NCBI RefSeq assembly: GCF_014803405.1
Contig: NZ_JACYFG010000006.1
Location: forward strand, 69,501-133,500
DNA: 64,000 nt
From: Pelagicoccus enzymogenes
Lineage (GTDB): Bacteria > Verrucomicrobiota > Verrucomicrobiia > Opitutales > Opitutaceae
Direction: 5' to 3'
The position numbers and the translations under genes are program-made. Positions 54,376 through 64,000 of the stretch are shown one piece after another. Below the pieces are notes generated by a model, which was given only the letters and a program-made list of their open reading frames with translations, was not told the origin of the DNA and made no database searches. Positions within the stretch are counted from its first letter, which is position 1; each line of letters begins with the position of its first letter.

Positions 54376-55143
54376 CTAGTTCCGAACGAATCTTACCAAG
54401 CCCAGCACTAAGCAAAGGGCCACCCCCGGCCAGATCACGAAAGCGGGACTGTGCAGCAACAAGCCCTGCCCCGTGCGCAGCAGCGTCCCCAGCTCCGCCC
54501 AATTCGGGTCCCCCGCCAAGCCTAGAAAGGTCAAGGCGCTGAGCTCCAGCAGGGCGAAAGCAAATACCAACTTCCAAAGCCCCAGCAACTGCGGCCAGAG
54601 GTTCGGCCAAATCGTGAAGCGAAACCGGTGCCAAACAGAACCGCCGATCGCCCGGCTGGCTTCCACGTAGGCCGTCCCGTTGAGTTCGCCCCAGAGCACC
54701 CGCAATTGGCGAAAAGCGAACGGCACTCCCGCAGCCCCAATCGCAATGGTCAGGGCAAGCGGACCTCGCTCCATGAACGTCACCACCAGCAAGCCGATGA
54801 AAATAGCGGGCATGGCGATACCAAACGACACGAAGGCTCGCACCAGCTTTCCCACGATCCGGCCGCCTGTCCGTTCCGCGGCCAATAGGATGGCCGACGC
54901 CACCAGAGCTGCCACGCTTCCCAGCAAGGCGAACAAGATGGAGTTTCCGGCTCCTCGCCAAATGCGGCTGAAATAATCCTGCCCCAAGCGATCCACTCCC
55001 AGCCAGTGACTCGCGCTCGAACCGCTGATTCGCAAGTCGAAGAAGGCCTGTTCATAAGGATCGAAAGGAGTCCACAGGATGCCCGCCGCAAGCGTTCCCA
55101 GGACAGCCAAAATCAAAAGGTTGATCCAACGCCCCTCGCTCAC
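54376..55143 (-). CDS. Peptide ABC transporter permease, DppC/OppC-like
   Basis: A 255-residue inner-membrane permease with about five or six membrane segments. It has the DppC-type block HWLGVDRLGQDYFSRIWRGA near the N-terminus and the EAA-loop region YVEASRAIGGSVWHRFRFTIWP. The start is a GTG that overlaps the dppB stop (GTGA), which avoids the 129-codon out-of-context extension. It is shorter than usual DppC (about 290-300), mainly at the N-terminus. It follows dppB and dppA in one operon. Confidence 0.87.
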   Translation of the reverse strand: MSEGRWINLLILAVLGTLAAGILWTPFDPYEQAFFDLRISGSSASHWLGVDRLGQDYFSRIWRGAGNSILFALLGSVAALVASAILLAAERTGGRIVGKLVRAFVSFGIAMPAIFIGLLVVTFMERGPLALTIAIGAAGVPFAFRQLRVLWGELNGTAYVEASRAIGGSVWHRFRFTIWPNLWPQLLGLWKLVFAFALLELSALTFLGLAGDPNWAELGTLLRTGQGLLLHSPAFVIWPGVALCLVLGLVRFVRN

Positions 55144-56150
55144 CCCCGAACCTCCTTCCGGGGATTCAGCTTGAAAACGATCATGTCCGAGACGAAGGCC
55201 ACAAAGATCACCAGAAGCACGAGGAAGGTCAGCAGGTTTTGAGCTACGAAGACATCTCGCTCCAATATGGCCGTCACCAGATACCGCCCGATTCCCGGCC
55301 AGGAAAACACCGTCTCGGTTAGAAAGGCCCCGCCCAGCAAAGCCCCAAACGAGGTGCCGATCACCGTAACGGTCGGCCCCGCCGACATCCGCAAAAGGTG
55401 CCTCCAAAGGATCCGCATCGGTCCGTATCCACGCGAACGCAGAGCCACGATGAAAGCCTGCAGTTCCGGTTCCTGCAGGCGAGCGTAGGTCACCGAGGAG
55501 ACCCCCGCGGCCGGAAAGACCGATAAGCATAAAGCAGGTAGAACGATATGAGAAAACGCTCCTCCCAAAGCTTGCAAGTTCCCCGCGATCGCCGAATCCA
55601 AAATCAGGAAGCCCGTCACGCTATCTGGAGGAATGGCTGCCATGTCGAAGCGCCCTCCCATCGGAAACCAACCCAGCCACAACGATCCCACCACCAGAAG
55701 CAAGATACCGATCCAGAAAATCGGAACCACCAGACCGATCGCCCCGACCCAGCCGGCAAGCCGAGCCACCCATGGATGCGTCCCTAAAGCCCCCACCAAG
55801 GCCACGCTCAACCCAACCCCTACGCCGACGACCAAGGCGCACAAGCTCAGCTCCAAGGTGGCTGGCATAAAAGCTCGAAAGTCTTCCGTAGTGGCCCTTC
55901 CACTACTCAAGCTGCTTCCCCACTCACCCCCCAGGAACTGCTTCTGCGAGATGAAATAGCGTTCCACAAAAGGACGATCCAAGCCCAATCGCTCTCGCTC
56001 GAGAGCAACCCGCTCCGCGTCGACCGTCTTGCCGAATCGCAAGGCAACCGGATCGCCCGGAATCGCGTCGATCGCCGCAAAAATCGCCAAACTCGCAAAG
56101 AAATAGAGCGCGAAAAAAAAGGGGATTTTCCTGAGCAAAGCCAGTGACAC
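55140..56150 (-). CDS. Peptide ABC transporter permease, DppB/OppB-like
   Basis: A 336-residue permease. The first membrane segment (about 7-27) leads to DAIPGDPVALRFGK and a periplasmic region with RLGLDRPFVERYF, both typical of DppB. Further membrane segments follow, and an EAA-like loop has VALRSRGYGPMRILWRHLL. The GTG start 57 bp after dppA is chosen because membrane segment 1 begins soon after it; upstream codons lie in unrelated sequence. Confidence 0.88.
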   Translation of the reverse strand: MSLALLRKIPFFFALYFFASLAIFAAIDAIPGDPVALRFGKTVDAERVALERERLGLDRPFVERYFISQKQFLGGEWGSSLSSGRATTEDFRAFMPATLELSLCALVVGVGVGLSVALVGALGTHPWVARLAGWVGAIGLVVPIFWIGILLLVVGSLWLGWFPMGGRFDMAAIPPDSVTGFLILDSAIAGNLQALGGAFSHIVLPALCLSVFPAAGVSSVTYARLQEPELQAFIVALRSRGYGPMRILWRHLLRMSAGPTVTVIGTSFGALLGGAFLTETVFSWPGIGRYLVTAILERDVFVAQNLLTFLVLLVIFVAFVSDMIVFKLNPRKEVRG

Positions 56151-56206
56151 GCCTGAAACTACAACCGCCTTGACCCAACGATGCGACTCGAAAACTGGCA
56201 AGCTCC

Positions 56207-57796
56207 CTACTGCGACTTCACCTGCACCTCGCTCAACCGCAAGTCGCCGATCTTCTGCAGCTTGAATCCCTCGAACCGGGAGCTGAGCACCACGATATTG
56301 TCGCCGTGACAAAGCGGCAGGATCGGCAAATCCCGTTTCCAGAGAGCCAATGCCGCTTCGTAGAGGCGGGCACGTTCCGCCGTGTCCGTCGTCTTGCGAG
56401 CGGTCAGCAGCAGTTCGTCCATATCCTCATTTCTATAAAAGCTGTAGTTGGTCGCGGTCCCCTTCTCCGCCGCCCAACTCCCGAAAAACACGCTGAGAAA
56501 ATTGTCCGTGTCGCCGTTGTCTCCAACCCAGCCGATCAATGCCGTCTCGAAGTCTCCATTTCGCAAGCGGTCCAGCTGCGTCTTGAAGTCGAGCGACACC
56601 ACTTTCGCCGGGACGCCGATCGCCTCGATCTGCCCTTTCATGAAGGTCGCTGCCATTACGGGATCAGGCAAATAAGGACGCGGAGCATTCATGACCAAGA
56701 TCTCCAAAGGCTTCTCTTTGAATCGAGCCGCATACGGAGCGGCCAACTTGCGTGCCCTTTCGAGGTCATGCAATCGAGCGTCCTCAATTTCCGGATACCC
56801 CAAGAAGCCCTTCGGAAGCGGATAAACAGCCGGCCTTCCCGCGCCTTCCAGCGCCACCGTGGCAAACGCCTCCCTGTCCACTCCCAATGAGATCGCCCGA
56901 CGCAATTCGATGTCGGCGAGCCGTTCGTTTTCGAGGTTGAACGCCATGTAGCCGACGTTCAGACCCGCGTCTTCGTAAACAGTCAGTTCCGGATCGTTCC
57001 TCAAGGCTGCAACTTCAGTCGGCTGCAAGCCATCCATGCCATGAATCGCTCCCGACTTCAATTGCAGCAGACGAGTCGTGTTGTCGGGCACCACCTTCAA
57101 AACCAGACGTTCAAATGCCGGAGACTCTCCCCAATAGTCAGGATTCCGTTCCAGGATGATCGCTTCATTGCGGCGCCATTCCTTGAATCGGTAAGGTCCA
57201 GTCCCCACTGGATTGCGTTGTATTTCGCTTCCATACGTATCCAAGGACCTAGGACTGATCAACCATGCTGGGAACACCGCGAGCGAACGAAGCATCGCCG
57301 CATTGGGCTGGGCTAGCCGAATCTCCAAGGTCATTGGCCCAACCGCCTCCACAGCCTCCACATCTTGGTACAAATAGCTCCAATAGGAAAATGCTGCGTC
57401 CGCGAGATGGGCCGGGTGCGTCTCATCCAGCTGCCTCTGGAACGAAAAGGCAGCCGCCTCCGCATCCAACTCCGTGCCATCATGGAAGCGGACTCCCTCT
57501 CGAATTTCGAAACGATAAGTCAAGCCGTCGGGAGAAATTGAATACGACTTGGCCAGCCAGGGCTCTATCTCCAAGGTTCCACTCTTGAAACGTACCAGAC
57601 CTTCGCAAATCTGCGTGAGCGTGTTGACGGATTCGCCGTCGTCGATATCCGCTGGGTCCAGCTTCTGGGCATCGCTGCCGCGGGCGAAGATGAAAACTTT
57701 CGGAGTCTCTCCTTCCGGCTGCTCCGACCTCGAGCCACAGCCCAGGTGGAAAAGCGACGACAAGGAAAGGCACAGCACAAGCAGTCTCTTTATCAT
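56207..57796 (-). CDS. Peptide ABC transporter solute-binding lipoprotein, DppA/OppA-like
   Basis: A 529-residue SBP_bac_5-family protein with a lipoprotein signal peptide. The lipobox ends at LGC near residue 20, so it is anchored by a lipidated Cys. It has RFEIREGVRFHDGTELDAEA, NPVGTGPYRFKEWRRNE and a family-typical C-terminal lobe with DFETALIGWVGDNGD, the last part typical of dipeptide binders. Met at the fourth codon of the open frame is used as start. It begins the operon and is divergent from the PhzF-like gene, 111 bp away. Confidence 0.93.
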   Translation of the reverse strand: MIKRLLVLCLSLSSLFHLGCGSRSEQPEGETPKVFIFARGSDAQKLDPADIDDGESVNTLTQICEGLVRFKSGTLEIEPWLAKSYSISPDGLTYRFEIREGVRFHDGTELDAEAAAFSFQRQLDETHPAHLADAAFSYWSYLYQDVEAVEAVGPMTLEIRLAQPNAAMLRSLAVFPAWLISPRSLDTYGSEIQRNPVGTGPYRFKEWRRNEAIILERNPDYWGESPAFERLVLKVVPDNTTRLLQLKSGAIHGMDGLQPTEVAALRNDPELTVYEDAGLNVGYMAFNLENERLADIELRRAISLGVDREAFATVALEGAGRPAVYPLPKGFLGYPEIEDARLHDLERARKLAAPYAARFKEKPLEILVMNAPRPYLPDPVMAATFMKGQIEAIGVPAKVVSLDFKTQLDRLRNGDFETALIGWVGDNGDTDNFLSVFFGSWAAEKGTATNYSFYRNEDMDELLLTARKTTDTAERARLYEAALALWKRDLPILPLCHGDNIVVLSSRFEGFKLQKIGDLRLSEVQVKSQ

Positions 57797-57907
57797 TGCT
57801 ATCATCCAAGCAACTCAACTGCTCAAAGCAACCACCGAAGGTCTTGCGACCTACCTGCCCTTCGACAAAGTGTCGCAAGAGTCCAAGCCCATCCTACGAG
57901 ACCCGCC

Positions 57908-58690
57908 ATGAAACTACCGCTCATCACCGTCAACGCCTTCGCCACCCAAGCCTTTTCAGGCAATCCCGCAGCCGTTACCCTGCTTGACGCATGGCTCGAA
58001 GACTCCCTGATGCAGGCCATCGCCGCCCAAAACAACATCGCGGAAACTGCATTTTTGCTCAAGTCCGGCCCAGCGAGCTACCACATACGTTGGTTTACCC
58101 CCGCCGTCGAAGTTCCCCTCTGCGGACACGCCACCCTCGCCAGCGCTTTCGCCCTGAGAGAATGCTTCGGAGAAAAGGCAGAGAGCATCACCTTCCAGTC
58201 GCTTAGCGGACCGCTCTCAGTTACCTGCAAGGGGGAAACCTACACTTTGGACTTTCCTTCGCAGCCCCCATCAGCAGCTCCGACGCCCGACTGGTTCATC
58301 AACGCTTTCGGTGCGAACCCCATCGAATTTCACCAGTCCGCCTACTCCCTCGCCATCTTTCCCTCGCAAGAGATCGTAGCCGCCCTCGATCCTGACTTCC
58401 CTTTGCTAGCCAAGACCAAGGGATCCAACGTCATCGTCTCCGCTCCGGGGAATGAACACGATTTCGTCTCCCGGTTCTTTGCCCCCGCCGACGGCATCGA
58501 CGAGGATCCCGTCACGGGGTCCGCCCATTGCATCCTGACCCCCTACTGGGCAAAACGCCTGAAAAAGTCGAAACTGACGGCTCGACAAATTAGTCCGCGC
58601 GGTGGCGAACTTCTCTGCGATCTGGTAGGCGACCGGGTACGAATCACCGGCAAAGCTCTGCTCTACAGCGAAGCGACAATTTACGTATAA
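57908..58690 (+). CDS. PhzF-family isomerase/epimerase-like protein
   Basis: A 260-residue enzyme with the diaminopimelate-epimerase-like fold of the PhzF family. It has VNAFATQAFSGNPAAVTLL, the catalytic Glu in NNIAETAF, CGHATLASAFALR and DEDPVTGSAHCILTPYWAK. Functions in the family vary; the phenazine pathway itself is not present here. The ATG giving MKLPLITVNAF is preferred. Confidence 0.93.
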   Translation: MKLPLITVNAFATQAFSGNPAAVTLLDAWLEDSLMQAIAAQNNIAETAFLLKSGPASYHIRWFTPAVEVPLCGHATLASAFALRECFGEKAESITFQSLSGPLSVTCKGETYTLDFPSQPPSAAPTPDWFINAFGANPIEFHQSAYSLAIFPSQEIVAALDPDFPLLAKTKGSNVIVSAPGNEHDFVSRFFAPADGIDEDPVTGSAHCILTPYWAKRLKKSKLTARQISPRGGELLCDLVGDRVRITGKALLYSEATIYV

Positions 58691-58700
58691 CCGATAAACA

Positions 58701-58731
58701 AAAACGCCAGGCCCAAGGGCCTGGCGTTTGC
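58701..58731. terminator. Bidirectional terminator between phzF-like and PEPCK-like genes
   Basis: AAACGCCAGGCCC and GGGCCTGGCGTTT form a long stem with a small loop. T-runs follow on both strands, longer on the minus strand. Confidence 0.88.
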
Positions 58732-58765
58732 TTGAAATAGGGGCCTTTCGCGAATGGCCGCGACT

Positions 58766-61700
58766 TTATTGATGCAAGCTTGGATCCGCGCCAATGCAGC
58801 CGACCAGGTTTTCCCGGTAAGCGGGTGAACGGAAGGTCTCCAGACGACGGGCGATCGCAGACTGGATTTTCTCCGCCTTGATCCGCTCCGCCATACCGAC
58901 GTTTCTTTCCGAGCTGAGATAGCTCTCGAGATAAGCCGCGTGGCGTTCCCAAAGGGCGATGTCCACCTTTTGCTTGGTGTCGAGACGCTCCTTGTACCAG
59001 TCGCTCTCAATCAACGCATCGTAGGTGAAGAGCTTGCGGAACGCTTCGTCTTGGTACCCCATGCCCTCGTACTCGCCGTAGGCCATGATGTGCAAGAGCG
59101 CCTTGAGCGGAGGACACGCTGCGTCGATAGAACCGTCAGCGAAGTAATTGAGAGCCACGCTGCGCTGCGTCTCTACAATATTCTTGATACCATCCACATA
59201 GGAATCCATCGACCGCAGCTCGGGCTTCAAAACAAACTCCGGGAATACCGAGCGCGGATTGGAGAACACGCGACCACCGATCGACTGTACGAAGTCGCTG
59301 GTGATGCGATAGCCCAAGCGGCTCGCCTCAATCTTCTCGCCTTCATGCTCGAAATCTTCGCAGGCCTCCAGGAAGCCCTTCTTGATCAAGTAGCTCGACT
59401 TGCGCTCTTCGGGGCGCATGCGGCTCCAGAGCTCCGGCACCAATAGGCTGATGTCGTGGTCCACCCGGAAGTTCGGGCCTACGCAACCCGCCGAGGAGAT
59501 GAAACACTCATATCCCGTTACGATGAAGGACACCAAGGCATTGTTGAGATCCACGATCGGCAGGAGCGCGTTGAAAGGCCCCTTCGTGAGGGCGCCTTCC
59601 GAACCAGCTCCCGTCGTCGAAGGGGACTTGCCAGTGAGGCTGGCCACGAAGTCCATGAACGCTTCAGGAAGCTCCTGGAAGTGAACAGGGCCAAACGGAG
59701 CCAAGGCACGGATCCCTTCCGAAGGAGGATTGTTGCGGCGGCCCGGCAATACGCAATTGACCGGGAAGTGGACTGTTTCCGTTTGCTCGAGACGACGATA
59801 CAAACGCGCTCCGACCTCCGCAACGTACACGCTTTGCTCGTCCTCAAGATCGAGACGATTCTGCAAGTAACGCGGATTCTTGGTGAACACACCATCCACC
59901 AAACGCGGATGAGACGAATCGATCGCGTAATCAGGACTGTCCCCCTTGTTGAAATCGGACAGCACCTTCTGCATCGGCTCGGTGAACTGTCCGAAACGAA
60001 TGGCGTCCTTCGCAAGCTCGCGAGTGGTAGCGCGATCCAGCGGCTCGTAGTTCGAGAAGAACATATTGTCCCGAGAGAAATCCTTCTCCGTGGTCTTGTC
60101 GTAGCCACGGTGAATCGCTTCGTCTGGACGTTGGAATAGGCGGTACTCGCAGTTCACGATGAACTTCAAGGAGGAGTAGCCGACAGCCCCCTTATCCAAT
60201 CCCTTTAGATGCGTGGCCGGTACCACGACAGAGGAGGAAATGTCGTCTTCCGTTTGGATCTTGGACGCTGGGTAAAAATCCTTGCGCAGGCTAAATACCC
60301 GCCAAGAACCATCTTCTTCGAAGCCGACGCGCAAGTATTGGGAAATCAACTTCTGGTCGCGATACTTAAGCTCGTTGCCGGGAGCTCCGTTCACGACGTC
60401 GACACTGAAGCGATCGCGCCAGCCCGCACCCCAGTCTTCTTTGTAGAAGCGCTTGACCACGAGCACGATGTCGATGACGTAGCCCGGAATCTCCTTCAAC
60501 CATGCGTTGTATTCATCTGTGAATACAGAGGAAGGAGACAGGAGCTGGATCACCGATCCCAAGGAACGCTTCATGCTCAGTAGAGGGCGATCGTCCGACT
60601 TGTCAGGACTCTTGAAACGCTTGCTGTAGTCTTTGCTCACGATCGCTTCGACCTGGTCGAAATCCTTCTTGAGGTCAGCGGTGAATACAGGCCCCGCTAC
60701 AATCGCGTCCGTGAGGAGCTTGGAAATCTCCGACTTGCCGCCGCCCGATACCGTACAGGGCTTGTGGCAGTAAGTGCCAACCGCGCTGGTACCAAGCAAA
60801 CGCCAGCGGCGACCTGCCATCGGTTGCTTCATCTGCACCTTGTAGCCGCCTGGCAAGATGTAAGTGCAGTCCGGCTGCAACTGTAGCTGGCGAGCCTCTC
60901 CGCCAACTTCCCAACTGATGCGTTGGTCCTGCAAACGGAAAACGGCGCGCTGCGGTATGTAATAGATATTAGGATACTTCTTATCGATCGCGTAACCTTC
61001 AGGCTTCACGTCGATCTTATCCCCCAAACGTGCAACCACTTCGTCAAAGGTGTGCTCCTCGTAATTCTTAGACTTCTGCAGCTGGAACTCCTCGCCCAAG
61101 TCGTAGCTGGCAAAGGCGAGCGCCCCGCCGGCGTGCTCCTCCTCAACGTTGCCGAGGAGGTTGGAAGCGTAAGAGATCTGAGTCTTTACCTCCTTCTTGC
61201 AGTAGCCAAAGTAGTTGTCCGCGATGAGCGTCACCACGACACCGCGACTGTCGCGCGAGGTGATCTTGAAAGCGCCTCCGTCGTTGTAGAGTTCGTCTTC
61301 CGACTCGTAGCACATGCCGTCGCGCTTTTGGCGTTCCGTAGCTCCGGAAACGTGCGGCAACCCGAGGTCCTTCTTCTTGCAGCGAATCAGATGAGGAGCC
61401 AAGATGACGCAGCCCGTGTGACCGGACCAATGCTTTACGTCCAAGCCTGAATCGTTTTCCGCGAGGAATGGGTCCCCCGCATTCCCGAAGATCGATTCCA
61501 CGAAATCGAGGTTGCTCGTCATGTTGCCGGGCGCGAAGAAACGAACTTCCATCCGCTTTTCCTCGGTGACACCGGGAACCTCCGGCTGAACGATGGGGCG
61601 CAACATGATGGAAACGAAGGTCCGCGCCTTCTCTTCCTGATTCGCGGTGAAGGGAAGCTCGAGCAAACTATCCGGCGGCTGAAGCGCGACTTCGAGCAAC

Positions 61701-62230
61701 TTGGCGAAAGTCTTGAGCGGAACTTGCTTCTTGTCGAATGGCACCGGCAGGCCTCCTTCGGAAACGTGGAAGACGCCCTTCGTAGTGCGACGGTCACTAC
61801 GAGGATTGTGGCAAACGCCCTGCTTGACGCGGAAGCTGCTTATAATGTCAGACTCGAACTTGTCAGAATCCGGCGGGATAGACAAGGCTCGCGCCATTCC
61901 ATGGCGCTCCAGGACGAGGTTGTTCGAAGGCAGCCAGACTCGGTCTTCCAGTCCGAGCGGCTCAAAAAGGGACTCCAAGTAATCTTGGACACGCTGATCG
62001 ACAGGGCAGAGATGATCCTTCAGCAAGCGATTCTTCTCTTCTACGCTCTTCAACAATGACTCTCCAAGCTTCAGCAGGGGGAAATCCTCAGCATTGCCGA
62101 AGATCGGTAAACCACGAGAACGTAGCTTCAAGTTCAAGTACTCAACTTGATTCTTGGCGTCGAAGACGTTTTCGCAGGTGGTCGGATCGAATCCGATTTG
62201 TGTTTTTAGGTCGGTACTATGCGTATCCAT
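58766..62230 (-). CDS. Pyrophosphate-type phosphoenolpyruvate carboxykinase-like protein
   Basis: A 1154-residue soluble protein. Size and motif order match PPi-type PEPCK described in Entamoeba and Propionibacterium, which interconverts oxaloacetate plus PPi and PEP plus phosphate. YFGYCKKEVK (Lys345/346) and EEEHAGGA (His366) are 20 residues apart, the same spacing as Lys244-His264 in vertebrate GTP-PEPCK (numbering recalled from memory), where both bind Mn2+. SGGGKSE (495-501) resembles the P-loop, and SDRRTTKGVF (145-154) may hold the substrate Arg. The region between His366 and the P-loop is about 110 residues longer than in GTP-PEPCK. The identification is by recall and motif spacing, not by search. 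It lies 68 bp after oppF on the same strand. Confidence 0.7.
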   Translation of the reverse strand: MDTHSTDLKTQIGFDPTTCENVFDAKNQVEYLNLKLRSRGLPIFGNAEDFPLLKLGESLLKSVEEKNRLLKDHLCPVDQRVQDYLESLFEPLGLEDRVWLPSNNLVLERHGMARALSIPPDSDKFESDIISSFRVKQGVCHNPRSDRRTTKGVFHVSEGGLPVPFDKKQVPLKTFAKLLEVALQPPDSLLELPFTANQEEKARTFVSIMLRPIVQPEVPGVTEEKRMEVRFFAPGNMTSNLDFVESIFGNAGDPFLAENDSGLDVKHWSGHTGCVILAPHLIRCKKKDLGLPHVSGATERQKRDGMCYESEDELYNDGGAFKITSRDSRGVVVTLIADNYFGYCKKEVKTQISYASNLLGNVEEEHAGGALAFASYDLGEEFQLQKSKNYEEHTFDEVVARLGDKIDVKPEGYAIDKKYPNIYYIPQRAVFRLQDQRISWEVGGEARQLQLQPDCTYILPGGYKVQMKQPMAGRRWRLLGTSAVGTYCHKPCTVSGGGKSEISKLLTDAIVAGPVFTADLKKDFDQVEAIVSKDYSKRFKSPDKSDDRPLLSMKRSLGSVIQLLSPSSVFTDEYNAWLKEIPGYVIDIVLVVKRFYKEDWGAGWRDRFSVDVVNGAPGNELKYRDQKLISQYLRVGFEEDGSWRVFSLRKDFYPASKIQTEDDISSSVVVPATHLKGLDKGAVGYSSLKFIVNCEYRLFQRPDEAIHRGYDKTTEKDFSRDNMFFSNYEPLDRATTRELAKDAIRFGQFTEPMQKVLSDFNKGDSPDYAIDSSHPRLVDGVFTKNPRYLQNRLDLEDEQSVYVAEVGARLYRRLEQTETVHFPVNCVLPGRRNNPPSEGIRALAPFGPVHFQELPEAFMDFVASLTGKSPSTTGAGSEGALTKGPFNALLPIVDLNNALVSFIVTGYECFISSAGCVGPNFRVDHDISLLVPELWSRMRPEERKSSYLIKKGFLEACEDFEHEGEKIEASRLGYRITSDFVQSIGGRVFSNPRSVFPEFVLKPELRSMDSYVDGIKNIVETQRSVALNYFADGSIDAACPPLKALLHIMAYGEYEGMGYQDEAFRKLFTYDALIESDWYKERLDTKQKVDIALWERHAAYLESYLSSERNVGMAERIKAEKIQSAIARRLETFRSPAYRENLVGCIGADPSLHQ

Positions 62231-62298
62231 TTTTGTTTCTCTTTCGGGTTAGCCAGCAAATTTTAGACGGCTGGCAATTTCGTATTCGATATCAAATT

Positions 62299-63120
62299 CT
62301 AACTTGCAATACTGGGCATCGCCGGAACGGCCGCCAACAGCTTCTTCGTGTATTCAGATTGTGGATTATTGTAAATGCTTTCGGACGTTCCTTGCTCAAC
62401 TATCTTTCCATTTTGCATGACCACCACTTCATGGCTCATGTGCTCTACCACCGCGAGATCATGGGCGATAAAAAGGTAGGTGATCGCGAATTCGTCTTGC
62501 AGGTCTTGCAGCAAGTTTACGATCTGCGCTTGCACGCTCACGTCCAAGGCGCTCACGCATTCGTCGCAGATGATGAACTCCGGACGGCTGCTCAACGCTC
62601 GCGCGATGCAAATCCGCTGGCGTTGGCCTCCACTGAATTGATGCGGATAGCGCCGCATGGCGTCGGAAGGAAGTCCCACCTTCTCCAGCAACTCCACAAC
62701 GCGAGCCTCTCGATCGGAGCGACTCAGTTGCGACTCATGCACGATAAGAGGTTCCGCGATAATGGCCCCTACCGTCAGCCGAGGATTCAAGGATGCGTAC
62801 GGATCCTGAAAGATCGTTTGGATGCGTTTTCTGAACGGAAGGAAAGCAGACTCCGAAAGCGGAGCAATATCAACGCCGTCGTATTCGATTTTTCCCGACT
62901 CGGATGGGATCAATTTCAGGATCGCCTTCCCTATCGTGCTCTTTCCGCTGCCACTCTCTCCAACGAGTCCTACCGTTTGCCCTCTGCGAACAGAAAAACT
63001 AGCGTTCGAAACCGCGCGAAACGAATCCGCTTTTCCAAAGAGTCCACCTGAGGAAGTCTGATAACTAACGTTTAAGTCCCTTACCCTTAAGAGAGGATGG
63101 CCATCGCTTGGGTCAGACAT
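62299..63120 (-). CDS. Oligopeptide ABC transporter ATP-binding protein, OppF-like
   Basis: A 273-residue ABC ATPase. It has Walker A GESGSGKSTIGK, Q-loop region FQDPYASLNPR, signature FSGGQRQRICIARAL, Walker B FIICDECVSALDVS and switch His in IAHDLAVVEHMSHE. DECVSALD is the usual OppF form. The end has QSEYTKKLLAAVP, the typical oligopeptide ATPase C-terminus. It overlaps oppD by 8 bp and powers permeases such as the dppBC pair in this window or another set outside it. Confidence 0.93.
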   Translation of the reverse strand: MSDPSDGHPLLRVRDLNVSYQTSSGGLFGKADSFRAVSNASFSVRRGQTVGLVGESGSGKSTIGKAILKLIPSESGKIEYDGVDIAPLSESAFLPFRKRIQTIFQDPYASLNPRLTVGAIIAEPLIVHESQLSRSDREARVVELLEKVGLPSDAMRRYPHQFSGGQRQRICIARALSSRPEFIICDECVSALDVSVQAQIVNLLQDLQDEFAITYLFIAHDLAVVEHMSHEVVVMQNGKIVEQGTSESIYNNPQSEYTKKLLAAVPAMPSIAS

Positions 63121-63961
63121 GGGATGCCTCCTTTTCCGCGATCGCAGCGTAGTCTACTACCGGTAAGCGCCCTTGACGAACGCCCAGTCGCGGAATGCAG
63201 CGAATCAAGGCCTTGGTGTATTCATGTTTCGGCGACGCAAGCACTTGCGTGGTCTCGCCTTGTTCCACGATTTTGCCTTGGTACATGACCGCAACCTCAT
63301 CCGCGAAACCATCTACAATTCCGAAATTGTGCGTGATGAGTATGATCGCCATGTCCTCCTTGTCTCGAAGCTCGCGGAGCAAATCCATGATCTGAGCTTC
63401 GATTGTGACATCCAAGGCGGTAGTGGGTTCGTCCGCAACAAGAATGTCCGGCTGACAAGCCAGCGCCATGGCGATGACAACACGCTGCTTCATGCCACCG
63501 CTCATCTGGTGGGGATAATTGCCATACCGCGAACTGGCATCGCGAATACCCACCTTCTCCAGAAGCCCGATACTCTCTTGCTTGAAATCCTGCACGTCGC
63601 TCCGGTGGAATTTGAGAGCTTCCTCTATCTGCGCTCCCACTGTGAAATAAGGATTCAAAGAGGTGGACGGCTCCTGGAAGACGTAAGCGATTCGCTTGCC
63701 ACGTACCGAACGCAAGCGCCTCTCCGACATTTCCAATAGATTCTCTCCATCCAGCAAGGCTTCCCCGGCAACCTCGCATTTGGGAGGAGGTGGTAGCAAG
63801 CGAGATAGCGACATCGAAGTAACGCTCTTGCCGCTGCCACTTTCTCCGACGATGGCTAGGGTTTTACCTCGATCTAGGGAAAACGAAATTCCCTTCACCG
63901 CTTCGATATTCGAGTGGCGGCTGTTGAAACGGATTTTCAGATCTCGTACCTCAAGCAGCAT
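63113..63961 (-). CDS. Oligopeptide ABC transporter ATP-binding protein, OppD-like
   Basis: A 282-residue ABC ATPase. It has Walker A GESGSGKSVTSMSL, Q-loop region FQEPSTSLNPYF, signature MSGGMKQRVVIAMAL, Walker B ILVADEPTTALDVT and switch His in LITHNFGIVDGFADE. C-terminal KHEYTKALIRCIPRLG is typical of OppD/DppD. The ATG giving MLLEVRDLKIRF is chosen; the frame extends upstream to the window edge as a TTG-started extension without ABC similarity. The start of the operon lies beyond the right edge. Confidence 0.93.
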   Translation of the reverse strand: MLLEVRDLKIRFNSRHSNIEAVKGISFSLDRGKTLAIVGESGSGKSVTSMSLSRLLPPPPKCEVAGEALLDGENLLEMSERRLRSVRGKRIAYVFQEPSTSLNPYFTVGAQIEEALKFHRSDVQDFKQESIGLLEKVGIRDASSRYGNYPHQMSGGMKQRVVIAMALACQPDILVADEPTTALDVTIEAQIMDLLRELRDKEDMAIILITHNFGIVDGFADEVAVMYQGKIVEQGETTQVLASPKHEYTKALIRCIPRLGVRQGRLPVVDYAAIAEKEASHV

Positions 63962-64000
63962 GATCGCCGCCCATCCTGCAAAGCCCACCGCAGACAACAA

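Follow-up and report, generated by a model that had tools for sequence, protein, structure and literature searches.

The window analysed here, a 64,000-nucleotide stretch of the marine bacterium Pelagicoccus enzymogenes (contig NZ_JACYFG010000006.1, positions 69,501 to 133,500), carries a gene that, judged by its sequence, almost certainly encodes a pyrophosphate (PPi)-dependent phosphoenolpyruvate (PEP) carboxykinase (PPi-PEPCK; EC 4.1.1.38), an enzyme linking two central metabolites through PPi instead of ATP or GTP; that it is this enzyme and also has a working activity is, taken jointly, very probable. PPi-PEPCK is a known kind of enzyme that is rarely annotated. The less expected points are its presence in a sister genus as the sole PEPCK found, and its adjacency to the ATPase genes of an oligopeptide transporter.

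58766..62230, minus strand: PPi-type PEP carboxykinase (PEP carboxytransphosphorylase), 1154 residues; phmmer matches to 6k31 and 8e1u, and fold search

Identity of the enzyme

An initial annotation, made from the letters alone, had read a 1154-residue protein at 58766-62230 as a PPi-PEPCK of typical length in a probable Verrucomicrobiota genome, and this reading is supported. The open reading frame (ORF) lies at exactly these coordinates, starts with ATG, and has a length within the PPi-PEPCK range of about 1100 to 1200 residues (1154, against 1153 for 6k31 and 1131 for 8e1u). A phmmer search of the PDB placed 6k31 (AiPEPCK) first (1158 bits, query residues 33-1152, E printed as 0) and 8e1u, a PPi-dependent PEPCK, second (1141 bits, query residues 31-1150, E printed as 0), with nothing significant beyond these two (third match, E 1.6); a profile of 29 relatives found the same pair (1533 and 1509 bits) and no other PDB match with E < 0.2. 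Homology to proteins deposited as PPi-PEPCKs is therefore nearly full-length, about 1120 residues, and the 8e1u match supplies the alignment to a Propionibacterium enzyme that had been proposed as a check; no Entamoeba entry was among the PDB phmmer matches, and no Entamoeba sequence was compared directly. The nearest named relative belongs to Pelagicoccus sp. SDUM812005 (95% identity), followed by Pelagicoccus sp. SDUM812002 and strain DG1235 (79% each), so the genome is indeed verrucomicrobial.

Against Pfam and NCBIfam the protein had no match even at E 10, the ATP- and GTP-PEPCK family profiles PF01293 and PF00821 included; profile-profile comparison of PPi-PEPCK with GTP-PEPCK returned a probability of 1.7%, and hence no detectable sequence-profile link, and PADLOC had no match. 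The remark that such genes are often left as hypothetical is consistent with this absence of any family match. Central-carbon models of these bacteria may overlook PPi-PEPCK for the same reason if they are built from family annotation, yet it occurs in 69 of 387 genomes of the phylum (see below).

Conserved residues and predicted fold

Residue conservation was counted over an alignment of the window protein with 98 relatives; 94 of its 99 rows are distinct.

61133..61198, minus strand: K345-K346 to H366, PEPCK-like Lys-Lys/His spacing; the three residues invariant in 99/99 rows
60731..60748, minus strand: SGGGKS loop, residues 495-500; invariant in 99/99 rows
60242..60247, minus strand: D662-D663 pair; invariant in 99/99 rows
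59570..59635, minus strand: TGKSPSTTGAGSEGALTKGPFN block, residues 866-887; highly conserved, 16 of 22 positions invariant in the 99 rows

6k31 and 8e1u have identical letters at the Lys-Lys, His, SGGGKS, and Asp-Asp positions, and the TGKSPSTTGAGSEGALTKGPFN block is present in both with small differences. The whole of T493-K504 (TVSGGGKSEISK) is invariant in 99/99 rows, R832 is likewise kept in 99/99 and R831 in 96/99, and D662-D663 may have a functional role. The claimed Lys-Lys to His spacing of 20 is exact (K346 to H366), and the organism's own GTP-PEPCK has an equal spacing (K228 to H248 in alignment-row numbering); the loop follows the His at 23 residues for ACGKT in the GTP enzyme versus 129 for SGGGKS in PPi-PEPCK. 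Taken by itself, such a spacing would say little; similarity to 6k31 and 8e1u over the whole protein is far beyond chance. The description of SGGGKS as "P-loop-like" was well chosen: in a canonical Walker A motif a Gly is expected five residues before Gly498, and since Thr493 stands there instead, the loop is not a canonical Walker A.

An AlphaFold2 model built from the alignment of 29 relatives has modest confidence (mean pLDDT 68.7, pTM 0.58). Structure prediction had also been suggested as a check, and the predicted fold is not unrelated to PEPCK: the top ten Foldseek matches were chains of 8e1u and 6k31 (E 1e-101 to 1e-98, TM 0.80-0.85; fold-alignment identity 48% for 6k31 and 45-46% for 8e1u), followed by many ATP-PEPCKs (best E 2.4e-5; TM, by query length, 0.2-0.3) and then, weakly, by GTP-PEPCKs (best E 2.1e-3). 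The model thus predicts a PEPCK-like fold for a chain roughly double the length of the ATP and GTP enzymes, and the link from PPi-PEPCK to the other PEPCKs is visible by fold search alone, mainly toward ATP-PEPCKs.

Other PEP and oxaloacetate enzymes of the host genome

The assembly containing the window (6.2 Mb, 60 contigs, 95.9% complete) has one PPi-PEPCK copy. The annotation had advised looking for the ATP and GTP enzymes as well; ATP-PEPCK was unmatched in a profile search of the genome, and one GTP-PEPCK was found (locus L033, NF003253 over its cut-off). Also present are a PEP carboxylase gene, two PYC_OADA matches (one in a 1154-residue frame, as in pyruvate carboxylase), and pyruvate phosphate dikinase (PPDK; TIGR01828 over cut-off on the 837 residues available). 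PPi-PEPCK is consequently one of several PEP-oxaloacetate routes in this genome. Two phosphofructokinase (PFK) genes exceed the cut-offs of NF005121 and NF010675, respectively, both named as PPi enzymes; they lie about 2 kb apart (contig C41, loci L037 and L038), and no third PFK match was found in the genome, so that PPi may drive upper glycolysis in this organism. A membrane proton-pumping pyrophosphatase (H-PPase) was unmatched in this genome.

Distribution in the phylum and in a sister genus

One draw of 387 genomes of the phylum was searched for each family, and the results were cross-tabulated. PPi-PEPCK was found in 69 genomes, GTP-PEPCK in 339, ATP-PEPCK over cut-off in 19, PEP carboxylase in 93, and the PYC_OADA domain in 302. 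Most genomes with PPi-PEPCK (53/69, G295 by weak fragments only) also match GTP-PEPCK; the other 16 comprise 8 with ATP-PEPCK and 8 with neither (G223, G289, G310, G345, G134, G322, G127, and G157). GTP-PEPCK is absent more often with PPi-PEPCK (16/69) than without it (32/318), a comparison to be read with the caveat that the genomes are related. One genome on a single contig, G088, has two PPi-PEPCK copies (loci L107 and L113) on separate branches of the gene tree.

G223, G289, G310, and G345 additionally lack a PEP carboxylase match; each of them carries a pyruvate carboxylase-type gene, with frames of 1146-1196 residues, and matches PPDK_N (as do 41 of the 43 genomes searched for it). The first three belong to one genus (g16), their proteins are 73-74% identical to the window protein, and in the 99-row tree this genus is the nearest kin of the window protein outside Pelagicoccus. 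G223 is assembled as one 4.09 Mb contig and is 97% complete, and the G289 protein is identical to that of L004, named as an Opitutaceae metagenome-assembled genome. Profile searches of the three g16 genomes matched neither GTP-PEPCK nor ATP-PEPCK nor PEP carboxylase, which leaves PPi-PEPCK as the one enzyme detected there that takes oxaloacetate directly to PEP; these absences rest on searches that find GTP-PEPCK in most other genomes, with incomplete assemblies as a caveat. Some close relatives of the window bacterium thus seem to be without another enzyme for the PEP-oxaloacetate step, and any bacterial genus in which PPi-PEPCK is the sole such enzyme would make the direction in the cell directly testable.

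In a tree of the 99 rows (quick method, SH-aLRT support), a group of nine with support 100 contains the window, L002, L003, L019, four g16 rows (those of L004 and L039 being identical), and G339, and stands apart from a 25-row group containing the 22 other rows of the same family (f1, the family code of the genome search). Simple vertical descent within f1 was rejected for the gene tree: constraining its 27 rows costs 120.7 log units (p-AU 4e-8) in a test on 67 rows, namely the genome-survey rows and the window, with 30 related-locus rows and the long-branch L080 and L104 left out. The split may reflect transfer, or old duplication with loss. A plasmid collection yielded one match, a PPi-PEPCK relative with 51% identity (L124; CP012861.1, 11094-14513) on a 632 kb replicon of Persicobacter (Bacteroidota) that is called a plasmid in a record without annotation.

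Gene order and putative transcript

The following features flank the PPi-PEPCK gene.

63113..64000, minus strand: OppD/DppD-like oligopeptide/dipeptide ATP-binding cassette (ABC) transporter ATPase, touching the window edge; NCBIfam, none over cut-off among the 25 matches listed
62299..63120, minus strand: OppF/DppF-like oligopeptide/dipeptide ABC transporter ATPase; NCBIfam, none over cut-off among the 25 matches listed
58702..58729, minus strand: terminator-like hairpin of 12 pairs (8 G-C) with a T-rich tail, 37 bases past the PPi-PEPCK stop
57908..58690, plus strand: PhzF-family isomerase gene between PPi-PEPCK and the remaining transporter genes; TIGR00654 over cut-off
56207..57805, minus strand: oligopeptide/dipeptide substrate-binding protein of the transporter; DppA-like NCBIfam matches below cut-offs
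54376..56312, minus strand: two transporter permeases (OppB-like ORF 55140-56312, OppC-like ORF 54376-55530); NCBIfam matches below cut-offs

The true permease starts probably lie further in, since neither ORF matches its family near its beginning. Gene order was compared in eight clade genomes (the window, L002, L003, L019, G289, G223, G310, and G339): oppD and oppF stand directly upstream of PPi-PEPCK on the same strand in all eight, substrate-binding and permease genes follow it in six, and the opposite-strand PhzF gene is interposed in the four Pelagicoccus-type genomes only. No other fetched locus, many with only 1.5 kb of flank, has the oppD-oppF pair beside PPi-PEPCK; beyond the clade, a single ABC ATPase (32% to OppF) adjoins the gene in L092, and an OppD-like gene (64%) lies about 4 kb from it in L031. 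A neighborhood shared across the whole family was not recovered by clustering of flanking ORFs, which gave families in at most 9 loci, mostly from related genomes, and is a weak negative given that many loci have only 1.5 kb of flank.

The gap between oppF and PPi-PEPCK is 68 bases, on the same strand, and holds no minus-strand terminator-like site; between 57600 and 62600 there are 8 terminator-like sites (4.8 expected, sd 2.4), of which the one at 58702..58729 has the longest stem. The short gap without such a site and the 12-pair stem after the stop suggest a transcript oppD-oppF-PPi-PEPCK, in which PPi-PEPCK would be the last gene after the transporter ATPases. Genes for two PPi enzymes are also loosely clustered in 4 of the 43 genomes searched for PPDK_N: a PPDK-type gene is about 6.5 kb from PPi-PEPCK in G099 (C1:5296120-5307057, on a 5.96 Mb contig), and the distance is about 14-21 kb in G160, G360, and G345.

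Direction of the reaction and rival explanations

PPi-PEPCK would catalyse oxaloacetate + PPi <-> PEP + CO2 + phosphate (Pi), and would mainly form PEP from oxaloacetate when peptides or amino acids are the carbon source, the PPi spent coming from biosynthesis and from PPDK. We lean slightly toward PEP formation during peptide use as the main direction of the window enzyme, both because the gene travels with peptide-importer ATPase genes and because g16 has a pyruvate carboxylase-type gene to make oxaloacetate and no other direct oxaloacetate-to-PEP enzyme that we could find; malic enzyme plus PPDK could provide a bypass. We consider it possible, though less likely than not, that in g16 PPi-PEPCK took over the whole PEP-oxaloacetate step and is co-transcribed with the importer ATPases, carrying peptide carbon into gluconeogenesis at the cost of waste PPi, not ATP or GTP. 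The main rival is the same enzyme running mostly in reverse, as anaplerotic CO2 fixation (PEP + CO2 + Pi -> oxaloacetate + PPi) that feeds PPi to the two PPi-type PFKs, both of which, together with the lack of a membrane H-PPase match, speak in its favor; we regard it as a serious possibility, if short of an even one, given that PEP carboxylase is already present in the window genome alongside a pyruvate carboxylase-type gene, and that the four genomes without GTP-PEPCK, ATP-PEPCK, or PEP carboxylase all keep the latter. Several observations weigh against PEP formation from peptides, or against parts of the case for it: nothing forces the direction in the window genome, because GTP-PEPCK, PEP carboxylase, and the pyruvate carboxylase-type gene are all present; replacement of PEP carboxylase fails as a general rule, the latter occurring in 42/69 genomes with PPi-PEPCK (G160 counted on short fragments) versus 51/318 without (Fisher p 2e-13, not a fair probability since the genomes are related); G223 and G310 have no other transporter genes in the 7.5-8.6 kb fetched downstream, where a GluQRS-type gene follows PPi-PEPCK instead; the scanned stretch from 57600 to 62600, which stops short of oppD, has 0 promoter-like sites (1.8 expected); and model confidence is lowest at the putative active-site stretches 346-366, 492-514, and 865-889, so that the model supports the fold and not the geometry of the site.

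Two further explanations concern the protein itself. Redundancy with GTP-PEPCK in the window genome and the unusual gene neighborhood could point to a homolog with lost or changed activity, kept by the transporter, for example as a sensor of oxaloacetate or malate; we consider this very unlikely, because the Lys-Lys, His, SGGGKS, and Asp-Asp residues are intact and the protein is the sole PEPCK found in three sister-genus genomes. Still less credible is that additional domains have enlarged a PEPCK working with ATP or GTP: Foldseek does list ATP-PEPCKs after the PPi enzymes, and the Lys-Lys/His spacing is common to both, but the lack of any Pfam or NCBIfam match, the negligible profile similarity to GTP-PEPCK, and the 45-48% identity to PPi enzymes all argue against it.

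Comparison with known systems

PPi-PEPCK was reportedly founded as a family by Chiba et al. in 2015, with a structural sequel in 2019, and Siu et al. (1961) name the reaction in their title as CO2 fixation by PEP carboxytransphosphorylase, reportedly for the Propionibacterium enzyme, a point in favor of the CO2-fixing direction. The window protein resembles 6k31, which we take to be an Actinomyces enzyme, over query residues 33-1152 (48% fold-alignment identity, same Lys-Lys/His and SGGGKS letters), and the Propionibacterium freudenreichii enzyme 8e1u over residues 31-1150 (45-46%), but both come from another bacterial phylum, and the 8e1u structure has malate bound. Nearer at hand, the organism's own GTP-PEPCK (NF003253, L033) shares the spacing of 20 and the same carbon reaction, but is about half as long and has no detectable sequence-profile similarity.

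A 2020 review (PMC8100219) records PPi-PEPCK from a limited but diverse set of unicellular eukaryotes and bacteria, most of which also have an ATP or GTP enzyme, gives Entamoeba histolytica as having the PPi type only, and notes that the enzyme is without an InterPro family. Two other reports describe malate conversion to PEP in a methanotroph extract, ascribed by the authors to malate dehydrogenase and PPi-PEPCK and in line with PEP formation (PMC6860931), and a PPi-preferring sugar-acid kinase in Verrucomicrobiota (PMC12632266); among the open-licence papers listed in our literature searches we found no description of PPi-PEPCK in Verrucomicrobiota or beside a peptide transporter. The closest parallels are planctomycetes of the same Planctomycetes-Verrucomicrobia-Chlamydiae superphylum, compared by table listing and not by sequence, for which two papers (PMC7716947, PMC7716917) list EC 4.1.1.38 together with PPDK and PPi-type PFK; unlike the window genome with its GTP-PEPCK, strains Mal4, CA51, Mal33, and Poly24 are listed there with ATP-PEPCK beside PPi-PEPCK. 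Two Thalassoglobus strains are tabulated in PMC7716917 with PPi-PEPCK, pyruvate carboxylase, and PPDK and without ATP- or GTP-PEPCK; the PPi-PEPCK row of that table may hold an error, since the Mal4 PPi-PEPCK locus tag is the same as that of another enzyme. PPi-PEPCK as the sole enzyme of its kind has therefore, by that listing, already been tabulated for bacteria of this superphylum.

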